Source: a virus. From it: a stretch of 20,547 nt of DNA. Under the pieces are notes generated by a model that was not told where the DNA came from, ran no database searches, and saw nothing but the letters and a program-made list of their open reading frames with translations. The DNA is taken from positions 1 through 20,547 of IMG/VR virus record IMGVR_UViG_3300044675_003679. One strand, 5' to 3'. The position numbers were made by a program, and so were the translations under genes. Of the stretch, positions 1 to 7,486 are shown one piece after another (position 1 is the first letter of the stretch; each line of letters starts with the position of its first letter).

Positions 1-161
1 ATGGGGTGTTTGATGTAATAACGAGCGGTCTTTTTCCCGCTCTGTCCGTCCCGCATCCAAAGCAATTTGCAGGCGGTGGGATACAATTCCGTCCCCTGCG
101 GGATGGTAATGGTGACACCTTGGCGGGTGGTGAGGCGGTGGGTGGCGTTTAGTACGAACAT
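1..161 (-). CDS. Small unknown protein, C-terminus cut off by window edge
   Basis: An open frame of 53 codons starts at the ATG at 161-159 and runs off the left edge without a stop. The product begins MFVLNATHRLTTRQG and contains a PQGTELYPTACKLLWMRDG stretch. I do not recognise a family. The start is supported by its own promoter at 187-215 and by the leader element CAATCCTTCCAACCAC, which also precedes the next gene upstream (223-459). Here that element is followed by eight extra bases before the ATG. The gene is the leftmost visible member of the leftward series of small early genes, so its function may be host takeover or anti-defence, but this is inference from position only. Confidence 0.6.
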   Translation of the reverse strand, partial: MFVLNATHRLTTRQGVTITIPQGTELYPTACKLLWMRDGQSGKKTARYYIKHP

Positions 162-186
162 GGGCGGTTGTGGTTGGAAGGATTGC

Positions 187-215
187 AGTCTAGCAGGGTG
201 GCGGTGGTGTGTCAA
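187..215 (-). promoter_or_regulatory. Sigma-70-type promoter for the gene at 1-161
   Basis: On the minus strand the -35 box TTGACA (215-210) and the -10 box TAGACT (192-187) are separated by exactly 17 nt. The predicted transcription start near 180 leaves a leader of about 20 nt. One of seven near-identical early promoters in this region. Confidence 0.8.
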
Positions 216-222
216 CTGGGGC

Positions 223-459
223 TTACTGCCAGTCATAAACGCATTGAGGGCAGACTTCATGCGTACCACGCATGACGGAGGAAGAGATGCGAGACCGCTT
301 GTTCCAGTATATAGCCTTAACAGTATAACGCTCTCCCGCCAAGTCGTTGCAACAGTCACAACGCCAAGAAGAAAAACAATTGTGGAGCGGGTTGCCTTGC
401 TCGTCTTGGATGGTCTCAAGCCGTTCAAGTTTCGGGTGGATGTAGTTGGTGGGCTTCAT
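223..459 (-). CDS. Small zinc-ribbon-like protein
   Basis: Encodes 78 residues with two cysteine clusters: C34, C36 and C37 in RCDCCNDLAGER, and C70/C73 in CPQC near the C-terminus, with an extra C28. This spacing is typical of a small zinc ribbon, so metal binding and nucleic-acid or protein contact are likely, but no specific family is recognised. The start at 459 lies about 12 nt after the predicted transcription start of its own promoter (477-505), with the G-free leader CAATCCTTCCAACCAC directly before the ATG and no Shine-Dalgarno sequence. It belongs to the leftward early gene series and follows the ArdA-like gene. Confidence 0.75.
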   Translation of the reverse strand: MKPTNYIHPKLERLETIQDEQGNPLHNCFSSWRCDCCNDLAGERYTVKAIYWNKRSRISSSVMRGTHEVCPQCVYDWQ

Positions 460-476
460 GTGGTTGGAAGGATTGC

Positions 477-505
477 AGTCTACAGGGTTGGCAGGATTGC
501 GTCAA
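477..505 (-). promoter_or_regulatory. Sigma-70-type promoter for the zinc-ribbon gene
   Basis: Minus-strand -35 TTGACG (505-500) and -10 TAGACT (482-477), spacer 17 nt. The spacer shares the word CTGCCAACC with the promoters at 1325-1353 and 1911-1939. Confidence 0.8.
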
Positions 506-514
506 GTGTCCCGC

Positions 515-880
515 TCACATGGAGCGGAACACAAAACCATTGTCCTCATCAAACCAGTAATCCCCAGACCAGACCAAATCCCTGCCGAATTTCTCATAAT
601 CGAAATACATTTGCAGGTTGTCGGGCATCTCGGAAAGCATACCGCAATCATCGACCAATTGCTCCGCAAAGCGGGTCATGTTGTCGAATTCGCCTTGATA
701 GGCTTCTTCAACCTCTTCGAGGGTAGTGGTGGTAACCTCTTCATGGGTGATATGGTAATTCTTGCAGTACGAGAAGACAATCTTCTCGTCACCCGCATCT
801 TTAAAGCGGGTAGTGTTGTCATCGAGAGAGAGCAACTCGATGATGCGGGCGGTGAGTTTTTCGGAGGGAGTTTTTTCCAT
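515..880 (-). CDS. ardA: ArdA-like antirestriction protein (short form)
   Basis: Encodes 121 acidic residues whose C-terminal half carries the ArdA signature: EEAYQGEFDN (58-67), a region GMLSEMPDNL (80-89), then YFDYEKFGRDL (92-102) and a final GFVFRS. ArdA proteins are elongated acidic DNA mimics that occupy the DNA groove of type I restriction-modification enzymes, protecting incoming phage or plasmid DNA. Typical ArdA is about 165 residues; this one lacks most of the N-terminal domain but keeps the most conserved part. The frame is open further upstream (to 922), but those codons would overlap the -10 box at 913-918, so the ATG at 880 is the real start. It lies among other small early genes, which fits expression on genome entry. 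Confidence 0.8.
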   Translation of the reverse strand: MEKTPSEKLTARIIELLSLDDNTTRFKDAGDEKIVFSYCKNYHITHEEVTTTTLEEVEEAYQGEFDNMTRFAEQLVDDCGMLSEMPDNLQMYFDYEKFGRDLVWSGDYWFDEDNGFVFRSM

Positions 881-912
881 ATGCGTGATGTGAGCGGTGG
901 GTGAAGGTTTGC

Positions 913-941
913 AGTATCTCAAGACTGCGGAGAATTGTCAA
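913..941 (-). promoter_or_regulatory. Sigma-70-type promoter for the ArdA-like gene
   Basis: Minus-strand -35 TTGACA (941-936) and -10 GATACT (918-913), spacer 17 nt. It overlaps the last codons of the upstream gene (stop at 919). The leader to the ATG at 880 is about 27 nt, the longest of the set. Confidence 0.85.
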
Positions 942-1302
942 GGTGGGCTCGCTTCATGTACTCCACGATGGCAGAGACTTGTCGCAAAACAAAATAGGTG
1001 TGTCCGTCCATGTGGTGATTATTGCAGTCCTTAGCCTCTAGGATTAAATCGTTAATAATAGCAAAAACAACAGTATTCAAATCTTCATTACTGACTTTGG
1101 AGATGTCAGAGCGACAGGCATCCAGCATGGCATCAAATTGCTTTTGCAGGGCGTTGTTATAGGGAACGATGCTCTCGTCCCGCTTGGGGTTTCCAAAGCC
1201 TAGGATTTTATTCCTAGTGTCATAGACTTCTTGGCGGTGCTGGCGGTGAGCAGTTTTTTCCGCTTCCGTGAATTCGTTGTGGTTGATTTCGTTGTTTCTC
1301 AT
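919..1302 (-). CDS. Unknown small early protein
   Basis: Encodes 127 residues, largely helical in appearance, with an N-terminal charged region (NEFTEAEKTAHRQHRQEVYD) and a hydrophobic stretch VVFAIINDLILEAKDC. No recognised family. The ATG at 1302 is chosen because the frame's earlier possible start overlaps the promoter at 1325-1353, while 1302 follows the G-free leader CACCCACCAACCAC found before several neighbours. It has its own promoter and no Shine-Dalgarno sequence. Position next to an ArdA-like gene makes a role in countering host defence possible, but nothing in the sequence shows it. Confidence 0.7.
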   Translation of the reverse strand: MRNNEINHNEFTEAEKTAHRQHRQEVYDTRNKILGFGNPKRDESIVPYNNALQKQFDAMLDACRSDISKVSNEDLNTVVFAIINDLILEAKDCNNHHMDGHTYFVLRQVSAIVEYMKRAHLDNSPQS

Positions 1303-1324
1303 GTGGTTGGTGGGTGAGGGTTGA

Positions 1325-1353
1325 AGTATCGCAGGTTGGCAGAGTGTTGTCAA
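1325..1353 (-). promoter_or_regulatory. Sigma-70-type promoter for the gene at 919-1302
   Basis: Minus-strand -35 TTGACA (1353-1348) and -10 GATACT (1330-1325), spacer 17 nt, preceded by TGC (extended -10-like). It overlaps the stop codon of the gene at 1350-1550. Confidence 0.85.
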
Positions 1354-1550
1354 TCGACCATCGAGATGGTCTTGCGGACAATCTTGTCGTTGCTGTCGTA
1401 TTTCCAGAGATAGAGTCGAATCGTGGATTCAACTCCGTCCTCATGCTCGACATCGTAACGCTCTAGGGTGGACAAGAACCATCCCTCTTTAAGCCAAGCA
1501 GACAGAATCATGGCGTGGTCTTTGGAAAACCCGATGTGTACAGATTCCAT
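1350..1550 (-). CDS. Unknown small protein, coupled to its upstream neighbour
   Basis: Encodes 66 residues beginning MESVHIGFSKDHAM and containing AWLKEGWFLSTLERYDVEHED. No family recognised. The ATG at 1550 lies four bases after the stop codon of the upstream gene (ending 1555), so translation is probably coupled. A longer TTG-started version (from 1574) would overlap that gene and is less likely. Unlike most genes here it has no promoter of its own and no C-rich leader, so it should depend on the promoter at 1911-1939. Confidence 0.65.
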   Translation of the reverse strand: MESVHIGFSKDHAMILSAWLKEGWFLSTLERYDVEHEDGVESTIRLYLWKYDSNDKIVRKTISMVD

Positions 1551-1554
1551 GTTG

Positions 1555-1887
1555 TTAGAAAAGGCGAGAGTCAACCTCGGTCATGTCGTAACCATGCTTG
1601 GACAGGATATCGCACACCTTGTGCGACAGGTCAAAGCACCCATCGTAATCAAGGCATTTCTTGTCTAGGTCAAAGGTAAGAGAGCCTTCTCCGTAGCAGG
1701 AGGAATCATCGGAACAGATTTCCCACCAGCCTCGGATATAGTCGTTATCGTCTTCACGCTCGTAGACACCGATGTTGACTGTGTAGCCTTTGGACTTTTC
1801 GGTGTCGAATCCGCTGGAGGTGGTCATGCGGACGATTTCGTTGATGTGCTGGGAGATTTCCAGCGTCTTCTTTCGGTTGTTGCTCAT
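1555..1887 (-). CDS. Unknown small acidic early protein
   Basis: Encodes 110 residues, strongly acidic, with the segments VYEREDDNDYIRGWWEICSD and FDLDKKCLDYDGCFDLSHK (five cysteines in all). No recognised family. The ATG at 1887 is preceded by a G-free leader (CATCCAACCACACAC) and by its own promoter at 1911-1939; upstream in-frame codons would overlap the -10 box. The acidic composition resembles DNA-mimic inhibitors in general, and the ArdA-like gene lies two genes downstream, but there is no motif that proves such a role. Confidence 0.7.
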   Translation of the reverse strand: MSNNRKKTLEISQHINEIVRMTTSSGFDTEKSKGYTVNIGVYEREDDNDYIRGWWEICSDDSSCYGEGSLTFDLDKKCLDYDGCFDLSHKVCDILSKHGYDMTEVDSRLF

Positions 1888-1910
1888 GTGTGTGGTTGGA
1901 TGAGGATTCA

Positions 1911-1939
1911 AGTATCGCAGGTTGGCAGACTATTGTCAA
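1911..1939 (-). promoter_or_regulatory. Sigma-70-type promoter for the genes at 1555-1887 and 1350-1550
   Basis: Minus-strand -35 TTGACA (1939-1934) and -10 GATACT (1916-1911), spacer 17 nt. The spacer and -10 are almost identical to those at 1325-1353 (shared TCTGCCAACCTGCGATACTT), which indicates recent duplication or recombination between the two sites. Confidence 0.85.
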
Positions 1940-2304
1940 ATAGTCCCGATGGGTACAGCCTTGTTGATGTGCAGGCTCGATTCCATGAACGCCTCGTTTT
2001 GCAATTCGGTGGCGGTCATCTTTTCGGTTTCGACATACATGGTGTCCCTATTGGTGATAATCTTAATGATTTCAACTTCCTGCTTCTTGTCGCTCCAGTT
2101 GACCTGCGAGATGACCGAGAGGAGGGCATTCATGGCGGTGAAGTGGACGAAATGGTGCATCGTGTTGTCCATTTTCTTGAACATGATGGCGTAGGAGTAC
2201 TTCAACTTGCCAGCGTTGCTGGTCAGTTCAAGCATCTTGGGGTGAGTCGTGAACTCGTTTTCGGTCACGATGTCGTTATTGTAGTAGGAGCGGTAGGTTT
2301 CCAT
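1936..2304 (-). CDS. Unknown small early protein
   Basis: Encodes 122 residues beginning METYRSYYNNDIVTENEF. The middle has a methionine- and histidine-rich stretch (MDNTMHHFVHFTAMNALL) followed by a beta-like segment (KQEVEIIKIITNRDTMYVET). No recognised family. The ATG at 2304 follows the short leader CCTCACCCACCGCAT and its own promoter at 2326-2354; codons further upstream in this frame overlap the promoter. Its stop lies within the -35 box of the next promoter (1911-1939), showing how tightly the promoter cassettes and genes are packed. Confidence 0.7.
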   Translation of the reverse strand: METYRSYYNNDIVTENEFTTHPKMLELTSNAGKLKYSYAIMFKKMDNTMHHFVHFTAMNALLSVISQVNWSDKKQEVEIIKIITNRDTMYVETEKMTATELQNEAFMESSLHINKAVPIGTI

Positions 2305-2325
2305 ATGCGGTGGGTGAGGATAGAT

Positions 2326-2354
2326 GTTATACCAGAGTGGTTTGATAATGTCAA
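2326..2354 (-). promoter_or_regulatory. Sigma-70-type promoter for the gene at 1936-2304
   Basis: Minus-strand -35 TTGACA (2354-2349) and -10 TATAAC (2331-2326), spacer 17 nt ending in TGG directly before the -10. Near-consensus and close to the promoter at 3012-3040. Confidence 0.88.
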
Positions 2355-2359
2355 GTGGC

Positions 2360-2674
2360 TCAGTAGTCACCGCTGTCATCGACAGGCTCATCGTCATCAT
2401 CGACAGGCAGGTCGTAAGCGTAGGCTACGGCTTTGTTGTGATAGGCTTCAGCGATGCGTTTGAGCAGAGCCTTGTCGGTTACAGGCTTGGCATCGAGGTC
2501 AATGGCTTCAAAGGAGTAGTCAGCGACATCCCAGCACCAATGGTGGTCTGTGGCTTGGGAGCCCCAGTATTCATAAGCACCGATGCCGTCATCGATGAGT
2601 TCAAGTTCAAGTTCACCAGCGACAAAATATTCGCCCTTGTCGATGATGACGCTAGTTTCGTAGGTAACAGTCAT
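2360..2674 (-). CDS. Unknown strongly acidic small protein
   Basis: Encodes 104 residues, very rich in Asp and Glu, ending in a DDDDEPVDDSGDY tail. It contains a beta-rich N-terminal half (TYETSVIIDKGEYFVAGELE) and a tryptophan-rich centre (HHWCWDVADYSFEAIDL). I do not recognise the family. The ATG at 2674 follows a G-free leader (CACCAACCAACCAC) like its neighbours, but no promoter is visible in front of it. Instead the tRNA-Arg gene ends 28 nt upstream, so it is probably carried on the transcript from the promoter at 3012-3040, and cleavage at the tRNA 3' end would create its messenger 5' end. Its charge would suit a DNA mimic, as an inference only. Confidence 0.7.
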   Translation of the reverse strand: MTVTYETSVIIDKGEYFVAGELELELIDDGIGAYEYWGSQATDHHWCWDVADYSFEAIDLDAKPVTDKALLKRIAEAYHNKAVAYAYDLPVDDDDEPVDDSGDY

Positions 2675-2702
2675 GTGGTTGGTTGGTGGGTAAAGAGTGG
2701 AT

Positions 2703-2774
2703 TGACCCTGCTTGGAATCGAACCAAGATTCTCTGCTTAGAAGGCAGATGTTCTATCCGTTGAACTACAGGGTC
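2703..2774 (-). tRNA. tRNA-Arg(UCU)
   Basis: A full cloverleaf reads on the minus strand: acceptor GACCCTG pairs with CAGGGTC (2774-2768 with 2710-2704), a D arm GTTC...GAAC, an anticodon arm TCTGC/GCAGA around the loop CTTCTAA (anticodon TCT, decoding AGA and AGG), and a T arm CTTGG-TTCGATT-CCAAG. The discriminator base is A and the 3' CCA is not encoded. The gene starts 6 nt after the stop of the gene at 2781-2993 and lies 28 nt before the next start, so it is transcribed inside a protein-coding operon. Phage tRNAs commonly supplement codons rare in the host. Confidence 0.93.
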
Positions 2775-2780
2775 TTTCCG

Positions 2781-2993
2781 TCAGAAGTTTCCGAACACGA
2801 ATCCAGCAACGCTGGAGTCAAGGCGATGCCTGCCGTTAGGGGTATTCACGGCTTGCATCAACTTGTGGTGAACGAACTTTTCAAAAGCCTCGATGAACTC
2901 GGGCTTGGCTTGCCGTCCATTCTGGCGAATGATTTGACGCACTCGCTTGACACAGATGAGGGTGGGCTTGCTCTTGCTATTTTTCTTTCGCAT
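2781..2993 (-). CDS. Small basic protein, possible histone-fold DNA-binding protein
   Basis: Encodes 70 residues with a lysine/arginine-rich start (MRKKNSKSKP). A helix VKRVRQIIRQNG (15-26), a longer helix KPEFIEAFEKFVHHKLMQAV (30-49), then NGRHRLDSS (53-61) and a short last helix follow. That order and the late GR-x-RL-D motif resemble the helix-strand-helix layout of bacterial and archaeal single-domain histones, whose L2 loop reads NGRKTV-x-x-x-D. The middle helix is several residues shorter than usual, so the assignment is tentative. The ATG at 2993 has its own promoter (3012-3040) and a G-free leader. A DNA-compacting or nucleoid-modifying early role would fit if the fold is right. Confidence 0.65.
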   Translation of the reverse strand: MRKKNSKSKPTLICVKRVRQIIRQNGRQAKPEFIEAFEKFVHHKLMQAVNTPNGRHRLDSSVAGFVFGNF

Positions 2994-3011
2994 GGTGGGT
3001 GAGAGGAAGAT

Positions 3012-3040
3012 GTTATACCACAACGGCAGACATCTGTCAA
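3012..3040 (-). promoter_or_regulatory. Sigma-70-type promoter for the basic protein, tRNA-Arg and following gene
   Basis: Minus-strand -35 TTGACA (3040-3035) and -10 TATAAC (3017-3012), spacer 17 nt. It overlaps the stop of the upstream gene (3037). The next visible promoter downstream is at 2326-2354, so this one probably drives 2993-2360 including the tRNA. Confidence 0.88.
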
Positions 3041-3348
3041 GAGGCTCTGCTTTCCAGACGCTTCTTGTGCTGGCTCAAGCAGGACTGGACGGAGATTTCG
3101 ACATTCTTCCAATGAAGTCGATAGTCTCGTCTGGTCTTAGCCCAGTTGGTTTTTTCCTTGGGGAATCCGATGCTGGGGTCTTTGGCAAGACCAACCAGAA
3201 CATCAAAGATATCCTTGGCGGTGTCGTTAGTGAAAGCCTCTTCAGCCTGCTCAAAGGTCAGAGCATGGGTGTAGAATTGGCTGGTGTAGGAGAGGAAGCG
3301 GTTAAGTTCCCTCTTGTTCTTGAACATCTTGGTGTCGATTTTGCTCAT
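3037..3348 (-). CDS. Unknown early protein following the regulator gene
   Basis: Encodes 103 residues starting MSKIDTKMFKNKRELNRF, with a helical segment ALTFEQAEEAFTNDTAKDIF and a basic C-terminus ending QHKKRLESRAS. No recognised family. It overlaps the 3' end of the helix-turn-helix gene by 47 nt. A second ATG in the same frame at 3381 would add 11 residues and lengthen the overlap to 80 nt; I prefer 3348 for that reason, but neither start has a Shine-Dalgarno sequence. It lacks a promoter of its own and is probably co-transcribed with the regulator. Confidence 0.65.
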   Translation of the reverse strand: MSKIDTKMFKNKRELNRFLSYTSQFYTHALTFEQAEEAFTNDTAKDIFDVLVGLAKDPSIGFPKEKTNWAKTRRDYRLHWKNVEISVQSCLSQHKKRLESRAS

Positions 3349-3832
3349 AGGCGTTTCCGACACTCTCTTGTTTTCCTCCATCCGTCAATGACTTTTCGTC
3401 AATGACATTTGCGTCCAATATAATATTATTTATCTCATCGTGCGTGATACGCATCCTGTGTTCGACCACGGCAGTCGGCTGGTCGTTGAGCAGGTTTATC
3501 TTGTCGATGAGAATCCCCAATGAAATAGGCATTGCGGTGATGGGGATGTTGTCGATTTCCTCGTTCAGCCTGCTCGCTCCCTTGCCCACGACATTACGCA
3601 ATGTGTTGACCACATTCTTTCGCCACGCCTTGTCATCCAACGCTGGCATTGACTTGCGGATGCCAACGACTGTGTGGGCTGACACGCCTGTTGCTTCCTG
3701 TATTTCACGCTGTGTATTCCCTTCCGTAATCATTTGCTTTATCTTCTCACGCAATGGCTCTGGCAGACGCTCACCTGTGTGGTTCTGCTTCTGGTCGTTT
3801 CCGATGATTTCATTTTTTGACTTGAACTCCAT
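3302..3832 (-). CDS. Helix-turn-helix DNA-binding protein, candidate early regulator
   Basis: Encodes 176 residues. Residues about 26-62 form a clear homeodomain-like helix-turn-helix: PLREKIKQMITEG, then NTQREIQEATGVSAHTVVGI. The rest is helical, with no catalytic motif. It is the first gene of the leftward block and diverges from the rightward recombination operon 128 bp away, the usual place for a regulator that chooses between the two. A terminase small subunit has a similar domain but is less likely without a large subunit nearby. The ATG at 3832 is chosen because the promoter at 3838-3866 would start transcription at about that base, giving a nearly leaderless message. The frame remains open upstream to a TTG at 3937 and an ATG at 3871, so a longer product is possible. 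Confidence 0.68.
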   Translation of the reverse strand: MEFKSKNEIIGNDQKQNHTGERLPEPLREKIKQMITEGNTQREIQEATGVSAHTVVGIRKSMPALDDKAWRKNVVNTLRNVVGKGASRLNEEIDNIPITAMPISLGILIDKINLLNDQPTAVVEHRMRITHDEINNIILDANVIDEKSLTDGGKQESVGNAYEQNRHQDVQEQEGT

Positions 3833-5201: not shown

Positions 5202-5864
5202 ATGAAACAACATAAGGATATCACCTTTGGTGGTATTTACATCCCTAGGGAAGTTTTCAATTCGGAACTTAGCCCGATGGCTAAACTCTTGTATGGCGTT
5301 ATCCAATGCCTAGACGGAGAGGATGGTTGCTACGCCAGCAACGCCTACCTATCCGAGGTGTGTGGTATCTCTGAGTCTACTGTCAAGGAGCATATCTCCA
5401 ACCTAATCGAGGCTAACTTCATCGTCAGACATGAGGCGTATGGCGAGACTAGGGTGATTAGAACCTGTGGTTCTGAAGCCATGAAGGGGGGAGCCAGAAA
5501 ATCGGCTACCCCCAGCCGAAAAATCGGCTACCCCCCAGCCGAAAAATCGGCTACATATATACAAGATAAGGATAAGAAGAATAGAGAAGATACAAAGGGA
5601 GATGCTGTCGCACTCCCTCATGGGGAGTTGTTCAAGAAGGCTTGGCTTGACTGGGAACAGTACAGGCGGGAGAAGAAGAAGCCATTGACAAAGACAACCA
5701 TCACCCTTCAACTGGGTGACATGACATCTTTGTCCGAACCAGAGGCTATCGCCACCATCACTACCTCCATGCGTAACGGCTGGCTGGGTCTATTCCCGCC
5801 TCAGAGACAGTCTGGCGGGGTCAAGCGTGTCACCACTAGGGAGGAACACTCCAATGGCTTCTAA
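5202..5864 (+). CDS. Helix-turn-helix replication protein (lambda O-like)
   Basis: Encodes 220 residues. Residues about 10-75 form a winged helix of the kind found in phage replisome organisers: SPMAKLLYGVIQCLDG, then ASNAYLSEVCGISESTVKEHISNLIEANFI. A variable, charged middle with the repeat-encoded KSATP/KIGYPP/KSATY segment separates it from a C-terminal helical part (AWLDWEQYRREKKK onwards). Position directly before the DnaC-like loader mirrors the O-P arrangement of lambda, so it likely binds the origin and brings in the loader and host helicase. The gene itself contains iteron-like repeats at 5492-5554. It starts one base after the exonuclease stop, with no Shine-Dalgarno. It overlaps the loader start by 11 nt. 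Confidence 0.75.
   Translation: MKQHKDITFGGIYIPREVFNSELSPMAKLLYGVIQCLDGEDGCYASNAYLSEVCGISESTVKEHISNLIEANFIVRHEAYGETRVIRTCGSEAMKGGARKSATPSRKIGYPPAEKSATYIQDKDKKNREDTKGDAVALPHGELFKKAWLDWEQYRREKKKPLTKTTITLQLGDMTSLSEPEAIATITTSMRNGWLGLFPPQRQSGGVKRVTTREEHSNGF
5492..5554 (+). repeat. Three iteron-like tandem repeats, candidate replication origin
   Basis: Three direct copies of about 22-23 bp lie at 5492-5513, 5514-5536 and 5537-5554 (the last lacks the C run). The core is AGCCGAAAAATCGGCTAC, and the core itself is an inverted repeat (AGCCGA / TCGGCT around AAAA; the first copy is imperfect in the left arm). An AT- and purine-rich stretch follows (5555-5600). Lambda carries its origin iterons inside gene O in the same way. 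The unit lengths of 22 and 23 are not multiples of three, so successive copies are translated in different frames, which argues that selection is on DNA rather than on protein. Confidence 0.7.
5838..5844 (+). promoter_or_regulatory. Consensus Shine-Dalgarno for the helicase loader
   Basis: AGGGAGG stands 9 nt before the ATG at 5854. It is notable because nearly all other genes in the window lack such a site, and it fixes this start, which overlaps the upstream gene by 11 nt. Confidence 0.8.
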
Positions 5865-6537
5865 GTGCCACCATTGCAGTTCTGATGGTATGCCCATCTA
5901 CAGCATGGAGACTGGGAACTTCATGGACATGGTGTTGTGCGAGAAGTGCTATAAGCATGAGTGGGCGTTGAAGCCACCGCACAATTACGAGATGGTGTTT
6001 AAGCAACTTGGACAGGCGTGGTGCGGGGATGGAATGCACCCAGAGATGCCAAAGGCTTTCGTCAATACGGACATGGAGTACAGCGATTTCATGCGTAAGG
6101 TGAAGTCGTGGAAGCCTGTGGATGGAAAGTGCGGTGTCATCCTGCATGGGCAGACTGGCATCGGCAAGAGCAGGGCTGGCTGGTGGCTGTTCAACAAGTT
6201 GTGGATGGACAACCATACCAGCAGTAAGTTCATGCAGATGCGGAAGTTTGAGGGCATGATTGAGAAGGGCTTTGACGAGAAGAAGCATGCCAAGGTTCTT
6301 GACGCTTTGATTTCTTGTCGGGTCTTGGTTTTGGATGACCTAGGCAAGGAGCGTCTGACCCCCAGAATGGAGACTGACCTGTTTGCCATCATGGATGAGC
6401 GTACCTCCAACCTGCGGACTACAATCATCACCACGAATTATACTGGTGATGGACTCATCGAGCGGTTCAATAGCAAGGAGACTGGCGTTGCTTTCGTCAG
6501 ACGGCTTAGGGATTACTTCACTTCCATTACCGCTTGA
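5854..6537 (+). CDS. DnaC/IstB-type AAA+ helicase loader with zinc finger
   Basis: Encodes 227 residues. The N-terminus has a four-cysteine zinc site (C5, C8, C29, C32; CHHC and CEKC). An AAA+ core follows: Walker A GQTGIGKS (99-106), Walker B VLVLDDLGKE (157-166), sensor 1 TTIITTNYT, and a late arginine-rich RRLRDYF. This matches DnaC and IstB-like proteins, which load the replicative DnaB helicase onto origin DNA using ATP. Length is near the family's usual 220-250. The gene overlaps the replication initiator and has a strong Shine-Dalgarno site, suggesting a high translation rate relative to its neighbours. No helicase gene is visible, so the host or a gene outside the window must provide one. 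Confidence 0.88.
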   Translation: MASKCHHCSSDGMPIYSMETGNFMDMVLCEKCYKHEWALKPPHNYEMVFKQLGQAWCGDGMHPEMPKAFVNTDMEYSDFMRKVKSWKPVDGKCGVILHGQTGIGKSRAGWWLFNKLWMDNHTSSKFMQMRKFEGMIEKGFDEKKHAKVLDALISCRVLVLDDLGKERLTPRMETDLFAIMDERTSNLRTTIITTNYTGDGLIERFNSKETGVAFVRRLRDYFTSITA

Positions 6538-6562
6538 CCAGCCAGTAAAACAATGTTATATT
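6534..6562 (+). promoter_or_regulatory. Sigma-70-type promoter for a short RNA
   Basis: TTGACC (6534-6539) and TATATT (6557-6562) are 17 nt apart; the -35 box overlaps the loader stop codon. Transcription should start near 6569. Confidence 0.78.
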
Positions 6563-6568
6563 CCGTGG

Positions 6569-6650
6569 CGTAGTTGTTAGTGGGTCATCGCATGAAAAAC
6601 CGAAAGGTTTTTGTAGCCCTTATTCGTGGTTGGATAAGGGCAATTTTTTT
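6569..6650 (+). ncRNA. Putative ~80-nt double-hairpin phage RNA or leader/attenuator
   Basis: Between the loader and ERF genes lies a self-contained unit: its own promoter (6534-6562), a first hairpin AAAAACC-GAAA-GGTTTTT (6594-6611) with a GNRA tetraloop, and a terminator hairpin ending in a T run at 6650. A second promoter for ERF begins just after it, so the unit can be transcribed and terminated alone. GGGT at 6582-6585 could pair with GCCC at 6616-6619, the same bases that form the left foot of the terminator, so an alternative fold is possible. I do not recognise an RNA family. It may be a trans-acting small RNA, or read-through control between the two halves of the operon. Confidence 0.6.
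6616..6650 (+). terminator. Rho-independent terminator
   Basis: Perfect 8-bp stem GCCCTTAT / ATAAGGGC (6616-6623 with 6634-6641), 10-nt loop, then AATTTTTTT. It would also stop read-through from the loader gene, unless antiterminated. Confidence 0.85.
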
Positions 6651-6655
6651 CTCCG

Positions 6656-6683
6656 TTGACGCAGGCGTTTTCTATGGTATAAC
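6656..6683 (+). promoter_or_regulatory. Sigma-70-type promoter for ERF and the genes after it
   Basis: TTGACG (6656-6661) and TATAAC (6678-6683), spacer 16 nt, directly behind the terminator. The predicted start near 6690 gives a leader of about 14 nt without a Shine-Dalgarno sequence (it contains TTATCCATCCT). Confidence 0.78.
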
Positions 6684-6703
6684 AGGACTCGATTATCCAT
6701 CCT

Positions 6704-7486
6704 ATGAAAGACGATACCTCCGCTCTAAACGACTCCAAGAAGGCTGAACTTCACTCCGCTCTCATCAAGGCTATTGGTGAGACTAAGGACATCGTTGCCG
6801 ACAGCAACAATCCTTTCCACAAGTCCAAGTACGCCAGCCTGTCGGCTCACCTGTCTGCCATCAAGCCCATCTTTGCCAAGCACAACCTTGCCATCATCCA
6901 GTTCCCCTGCTCGTCTAGCACCCTCTTTGGTGAAGCCGAGAGTGGCGTTGGCGTGAAGACCATCGTCATCCACAGCAATGGTGCTTCCCTTGAAGCGTCC
7001 TGCATCATCCCTGTGGAGAAGGGTGCTAGTGGTCAGCAGGCTGGTGCTATCATCTCTTATTTGCGTAGATACTCTCTGGCTTCCGTGGCGGGCGTGGCTA
7101 CCGAGGATGACGATTGCGAGATTGACCGCATCTCTCGCCCTGCTTCCCAGAACTCCACCACAAAGTACATTCCAAACACAAATGTTAGCAAGCCTGCTCA
7201 AGTTTCTGGTAATGCTCCTGCTCCTGCTAACGCTCCAGTCGTGCCTACTTCTGCTGGAGACATCGACCCTTCCATTCCTGTTCCTTTCGGCAACAACAAA
7301 GGCACTCCAGTCGGTGAACTGCCCCTTAACGATTTGACTTACTGGGCTACCAAGTGGGAGCCTCGTCCGTATGAGAAGACTGGCAAGGTGACCGCTAAGG
7401 ATGCCAAGTTGAAGGCTACTGCCGTAGCCCTGTACGAAATGGTTTCCAGCGGTCAGTCCGAGGGTTCTGATGAAGTTCCCTTCTGA
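6704..7486 (+). CDS. erf: ERF-family single-strand annealing protein with SSB-like tail
   Basis: Encodes 260 residues. The ERF core spans about 12-140: NPFHKSKYASLSAHLSAIKP (36-55) and GQQAGAIISYLRRYSLASVA (110-129) followed by the acidic EDDD. ERF proteins coat and anneal single-stranded DNA in phage recombination; the RecE-like exonuclease at 4403 is its natural partner. After a Pro/Ala/Asn-rich linker (150-190) comes a small second element, VPFGNNKGTPVGELPLNDL (193-211), resembling the short PFGK-x-KGKPL-x-ELP module seen in other phage and bacterial proteins. The last residues, SDEVPF, look like the acidic tip of SSB, which recruits DNA repair partners. It has its own promoter (6656-6683). 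Confidence 0.88.
   Translation: MKDDTSALNDSKKAELHSALIKAIGETKDIVADSNNPFHKSKYASLSAHLSAIKPIFAKHNLAIIQFPCSSSTLFGEAESGVGVKTIVIHSNGASLEASCIIPVEKGASGQQAGAIISYLRRYSLASVAGVATEDDDCEIDRISRPASQNSTTKYIPNTNVSKPAQVSGNAPAPANAPVVPTSAGDIDPSIPVPFGNNKGTPVGELPLNDLTYWATKWEPRPYEKTGKVTAKDAKLKATAVALYEMVSSGQSEGSDEVPF

Follow-up and report, generated by a model that had tools for sequence, protein, structure and literature searches.

Co-changing loops and gene leaders in related uncultured phages suggest an RNA switch for phage gene expression

Between the genes for a DnaC-like loader and an ERF-like single-strand annealing protein of an uncultured phage lies a compact element, which is a new non-coding RNA family and probably works as a phage-encoded antisense small RNA, pairing with the start regions of the phage's own mRNAs and blocking their translation. 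The complementarity of its exposed loops to gene leaders is the most informative feature of the unit, and the changes that loops and candidate targets undergo together in related phages suggest an RNA switch for phage gene expression.

The window, i.e. the whole stretch of DNA analysed (20,547 nt), is a 20.5-kb viral contig. Its plus strand carries genes for a RusA-like resolvase, an exonuclease, an O-like replication initiator, the DnaC-like loader (5827-6537) and the ERF-like protein, and positions 1-3400 of the minus strand hold a battery of small genes, many of them served by a promoter of their own. The promoter-leader cassettes of this battery are near-identical (repeat families D1, D2, D4 and D5; minus strand, 1-3400), and a tRNA-Arg (TCT; 2703-2774, minus strand) lies inside it, immediately upstream of one of the CCAACCAC leaders described below. 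In the replication initiator gene, three tandem units of about 22 nt (AGCCGAAAAATCGGCTACCCCC; 5492-5558) are possibly origin iterons, and a 2605-aa protein with no Pfam or PHROG match takes up 38% of the contig (12699-20516, minus strand). No DNA match to the window was found among cultured phages, whose ERF relatives stay below 60% identity (best among the matches listed, 36.5% over 55% of the protein); among bacterial genomes the nearest ERF occurs in Verrucomicrobia MAGs, with 41% over about half the protein. The parts of the unit and the gene that follows it are:

6534-6562, plus strand: sigma70-like promoter of the small RNA (TTGACC, 17 nt, TATATT; 10/12, with extended -10), its -35 box overlapping the dnaC stop codon
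6569-6650, plus strand: predicted small RNA of ~80 nt (about 82), its start inferred from the -10 box and its end from the T tract
6580-6590, plus strand: S1 segment GUGGGUCAUCG, the 5' anti-leader element, whose GUGGGU complements ACCCAC in the leaders of presumably early genes
6595-6612, plus strand: GNRA-loop hairpin H2 (AAAAACC-GAAA-GGUUUUU) from the predicted fold, AACC-GNRA-GGUU in most relatives
6616-6650, plus strand: strong intrinsic terminator, with a stem of 10-11 bp (6616-6641) and a tract of seven T (6644-6650)
6626-6633, plus strand: apical anti-leader element GUGGUUGG in the terminator loop, its GUGGU invariant in members at the dnaC-erf site
6656-6683, plus strand: ERF promoter (TTGACG, 16 nt, TATAAC), recurring at the same place in relatives
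6704-7486, plus strand: gene of the ERF-like single-strand annealing protein (phrog_2324, E 5e-30), downstream of the unit

At the level of sequence, the element is an independent non-coding transcription unit with its own promoter and terminator. An earlier note on this DNA had described a promoter, a GNRA hairpin, a terminator and a second promoter for ERF, and all four lie where it had placed them; the ERF promoter, whose -10 box ends in C, had been missed in the first promoter scan. The 86-nt RNA folds at -25.3 kcal/mol, against -16 kcal/mol for shuffled sequences (z -3.5), and outdoes 200 of 200 shuffles. By count alone the terminator is unexceptional, with four terminator-like sites in 2.5 kb where 2.1 are expected, and it is accepted despite this because conservation and covariation settle its reality.

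Regarding conservation, ERF relatives were taken from IMG/VR and the region upstream of erf was read. The unit lies between dnaC and erf in 15 related contigs (L002-L014, L020 and L187), its order there being a TTGA box over the dnaC stop codon, S1, a hairpin of the AACC-GNRA-GGUU type, a terminator with apical GUGGU and the erf promoter; the small-RNA promoter recurs through this overlapping TTGA box, with a weak -10 box in some relatives. A covariance model built from five members (R1) recovers the remaining ones as well as a variant located after dnaC, the loop of which holds only UGGUU (L168). The earlier note had proposed a covariance check of the hairpins in related phages, which finds them conserved and the terminator stem covarying. 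In the structural alignment, which is fitted to the structure of the model and hence leans towards it, 98.9% of cells are paired, a level that 0/500 shuffles reach, and sliding the partners destroys the signal; double (compensatory) changes concern 13 pairs, i.e. 12/12 in the terminator and the innermost one in H2. The same stem covariation is seen in a model-free table built outward from the loop. Across members the terminator stem is fully rewritten around a GUGGU that stays unchanged in those at the dnaC-erf site.

In Rfam 15 no family matches at the gathering threshold, the best sub-threshold scores being RydC with 15.1 bits (48 needed), SmY with 14.0 (39) and anti-hemB with 11.4 (49.5). 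The assignment to a new non-coding RNA family follows from this lack of an Rfam match and from the overlapping open reading frame not being conserved, and the family itself appears secure. The suggestion of the earlier note that this might be an undescribed phage small RNA thus gains support from the promoter, the hairpins, the terminator, the invariant loop in relatives, the covariation and the Rfam result. The unit was not found in the other ERF or DnaC relatives examined, nor in any of 66 further loci from a DnaC-based search, and it therefore belongs to one phage lineage. DNA patterns combining the hairpin with GUGGU returned mostly chance matches in IMG/VR; L228, which came from narrower DNA patterns beside known members, is a chance match without terminator and was rejected as a member. 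Run on 288 Verrucomicrobia genomes, R1 gave a single weak match (L280), a candidate at most.

Of note, a second hairpin-plus-terminator unit occurs in the clade B contigs of L007, L009 and L013. This three-hairpin unit sits at the 3' end of another gene (L248:927-979, minus strand; L243:4356-4408, minus strand; L256:16240-16297, plus strand), in the order hairpin, U-rich linker, hairpin of the AAAACC-GAAA-GGUUUU type, terminator and next promoter, and is possibly a 3'UTR-derived sister RNA. In L353, a phage without the RNA family, a different intergenic hairpin with the loop GUCAUGGUUGGU, followed by a terminator, stands immediately downstream of dnaC and could be a comparable RNA without relation to this one.

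Target comparisons covered the phages' own genes and leaders, and promoter-driven leaders were used because the first-ATG gene caller had set many starts wrongly. The leaders are short, rich in C and A, and seldom carry Shine-Dalgarno-like motifs. The window loop GUGGUUGG exactly complements CCAACCAC, which occurs six times on the two strands of the window, once opposite the loop itself and five times in minus-strand leaders, while permuted 8-mers of the same letters occur 0.9 times on average; ATG follows directly in three of the five leaders, 4 nt away in one and 8 nt away in one. The predicted targets in the battery are:

2675-2682, minus strand: CCAACCAC, adjoining the ATG of gene 2360-2674
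1892-1899, minus strand: CCAACCAC, 4 nt before the ATG of gene 1555-1887, within a 10-nt match (AUCCAACCAC)
1303-1310, minus strand: CCAACCAC, adjoining the ATG of gene 919-1302, with ACCCAC for S1 upstream
460-467, minus strand: CCAACCAC, adjoining the ATG of gene 223-459
170-177, minus strand: CCAACCAC, 8 nt before the ATG (159-161) of the next battery gene
515-880, minus strand: ArdA-like antirestriction gene, a battery member and weak predicted target, its leader offering ACCCAC to S1 (6 nt) and AUCACG to the loop (6 nt, one G-U)

The matching is specific to lineages. In clade C (L010, L020 and L012), leaders of the leftward battery end in CCUACCAC-AUG or UCCACCAC-AUG, and the loops read GUGGUAG(A/G) and GUGGUGGG. 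When loops are swapped and leaders with at least 7 Watson-Crick nt counted, the window loop fits 4/10 of its own leaders and 1, 1 and 0 in the clade C contigs; those of L010 and L020 fit 5/12 and 4/13 of their own and none in the window or L012, and that of L012 fits 3/12 of its own, yet 2/10 in the window. With GUGGU held fixed, the actual next three bases of the window and clade C loops rank 1, 3, 1 and 2 among 64. Base by base, ACCAC is preceded by A in 4/4 promoter-called leaders of the window, mostly by U in L010 (5/7) and L020 (4/8) and by C in L012 (3/3), and the loop bases of the window, L010, L020 and L012, i.e. U, A, A and G, are complementary to these. Some starts in the L187 contig are preceded by CACCACA, the complement of its loop UGUGGUG, the few promoter-called leaders there giving no signal. 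The clade B1 loop (GUGGUU) mismatches the base before ACCAC, and the fit of GGUGGU to ACCACC in some leaders spans six nt only. Exposed segments complementary to mRNA translation starts are thus found, weakly so for the clade B1 loops and L187.

The S1 segment adds a second line of matching, although it is partly paired in predicted folds. In clade C, S1 (UGUGGGUUGA) matches the leaders UCAACCCACA over 9-10 nt. In clade B, S1 reads UGGUUCAU(C/A)AUG and complements the start region of the O-like initiator, over 14 nt in L011, 13 in L013, 10 in L007 and L009 (allowing one G-U each) and 8 in L005; at the base before the AUG, C of the small RNA faces G or A faces U, which is a compensatory change. 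The scan took all ATGs of reading frames of at least 60 codons, such that matches of 8-9 nt include chance ones, and those of 13-14 nt (L013, L011) rank top in their contigs. For L004 and L014, S1 finds its best match at the ERF start (10 nt). The idea that the RNA pairs specifically with the ERF leader in every lineage was considered and rejected: L014 and L004 show good pairing (10-11 and 10 nt), but the swap test across lineages falls short of significance (p 0.08), RNAduplex energies having been set aside as too permissive.

Overall, the case for the predicted target pairing varies between clades, being good in some and weak in the rest. When both segments are shuffled, the observed mean pairing is reached in at most 4/300 trials for 9 of 13 phages, this composition test not being significant for L006, L007, L009 and L187. 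ACCAC stands within ~20 nt of the start in 20/185 cases in clades A, C and D and in 7/268 in five control contigs without the RNA (p 0.0004), the controls being more distant phages and the contigs having been grouped after the pattern was seen. As the promoter-leader cassettes inside one phage look like, and probably are, copies of one cassette, leader counts are not independent, and what counts as independent is that about four lineages agree; only 3-4 lineages carry loop-leader covariation.

These results bear on two other accounts of the element. It might be a plain transcription boundary, where the terminator ends the replication operon and the ERF promoter follows, with no function in trans and with coincidental complementarity. 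Terminator and promoter do stand where such a boundary is expected, terminators covary anyway to preserve their stem, and G/U-rich loops match C/A-rich leaders partly by composition; still, a boundary could do without a promoter immediately upstream, a conserved GNRA hairpin or an invariant loop carried by a fully rewritten stem, and loop and leader bases change together, making this account unlikely. Alternatively, a real small RNA could have host mRNAs, host small RNAs or ribosomes as its main targets, the matches to phage leaders reflecting shared C/A-rich starts with few Shine-Dalgarno motifs. Several phage small RNAs (PreS, VpdS and AgvB) act on host RNAs (PMC12197685), and G/U-rich loops would fit many C/A-rich leaders, but the matching to the phages' own leaders is lineage-specific and one phage gene is matched over 13-14 nt in L011 and L013, both of which argue against this account, and it is considered improbable.

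Far less credible is a cis attenuator, the other function proposed in the earlier note, where alternative GGGU-GCCC pairing would govern read-through from the replication genes into ERF. The window does contain four complementary bases (6582-6585 and 6616-6619), but their predicted pairing probability is 0 in the complete RNA and 0.04 when the transcript ends after the left arm; 13 relatives show no conserved counterpart, the longest complement there being 0-4 nt. The supposed attenuator signature is therefore neither predicted by folding nor conserved, no mutually exclusive antiterminator pairing is found, and ERF has its own conserved promoter past the terminator, which leaves control of read-through unsupported as well. 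Least probable of all is a small protein gene: the 57-aa frame (6574-6747, MKNRKV...; ATG at 6591) is open in the window and its first residues are similar in L006-L008, but start and frame are lost or altered in most other relatives, several with internal stops, where the stems keep pairing.

For the favoured antisense RNA, the following course can be proposed. From its own promoter, a transcript of ~80 nt would carry S1, the GNRA hairpin and the terminator hairpin with its apical GUGGU, and S1 and the loop would pair with the phage's promoter-driven genes at their start codons and short C/A-rich leaders. For the window clade and clade C these genes would be the leftward battery, ArdA-like antirestriction gene included, and for clade B the replication initiator. 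Once the replication region is transcribed, pairing beside or over the AUG would occlude ribosomes, and for this reason repression is the expected sign. Because the RNA would be made from the replication region, the simplest scenario is that it turns the leftward battery off, its targets in other clades being the initiator and in some cases ERF. A fuller reading, falling somewhat short of likely, is a one-RNA switch in which the leaders of a presumably early battery share an 'address' read by two exposed segments, both co-evolving as a lineage-specific RNA code. The phage antisense RNAs described in model phages mostly act on a single target or a few; the present case, on comparative sequence alone, points to a phage small RNA that has multiple targets and co-evolves with them, in uncultured phages whose leaders are largely devoid of Shine-Dalgarno motifs. 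The predictions are exact, i.e. one loop base against one leader base, repeated across several genes, and the covariance model allows further members to be searched for.

Among described regulators, PreS of lambda and VpdS of VP882 are likewise phage-encoded, trans-acting small RNAs (PMC12197685). Both are described as Hfq-binding, PreS acting on host dnaN and VpdS on phage and host mRNA levels. In Listeria, the LhrC1-5 small RNAs can pair with mRNA starts through several redundant single-stranded elements including the terminator loop (PMC5880928). The likeness lies in these redundant anti-start elements; however, LhrC1-5 are host-encoded, with CU-rich elements against Shine-Dalgarno sites and no sequence relation to the present RNA, which is phage-encoded and turns G/U-rich elements (GUGGGU, GUGGU) towards C/A-rich leaders, few of them with Shine-Dalgarno-like motifs.

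The c4 RNA of P1/P7 is reported to block translation through complementary sequences that are probably in RNA loops (PMC12197685), and together with P22 sar RNA it resembles the present element, as predicted, in the pairing of a phage-encoded RNA around a phage gene start. Both c4 and sar regulate one target, ant, in immunity control, whereas here the RNA adjoins ERF and several separately promoted genes share a leader motif; no Rfam match links it to them, and its predicted targets, small battery genes and the initiator, include none annotated as antirepressor; by the comparisons made it belongs neither to these RNAs nor to LhrC. Similar in being a short phage antisense transcript, the lambda OOP RNA likewise arises in the replication region. 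Its antisense partner is cII, whereas the present RNA occupies an intergenic gap facing no recognised gene on the other strand and has its predicted targets elsewhere. Placed beside these systems, the element would constitute a new family within the phage-encoded antisense small RNAs, presumably a repressive one.
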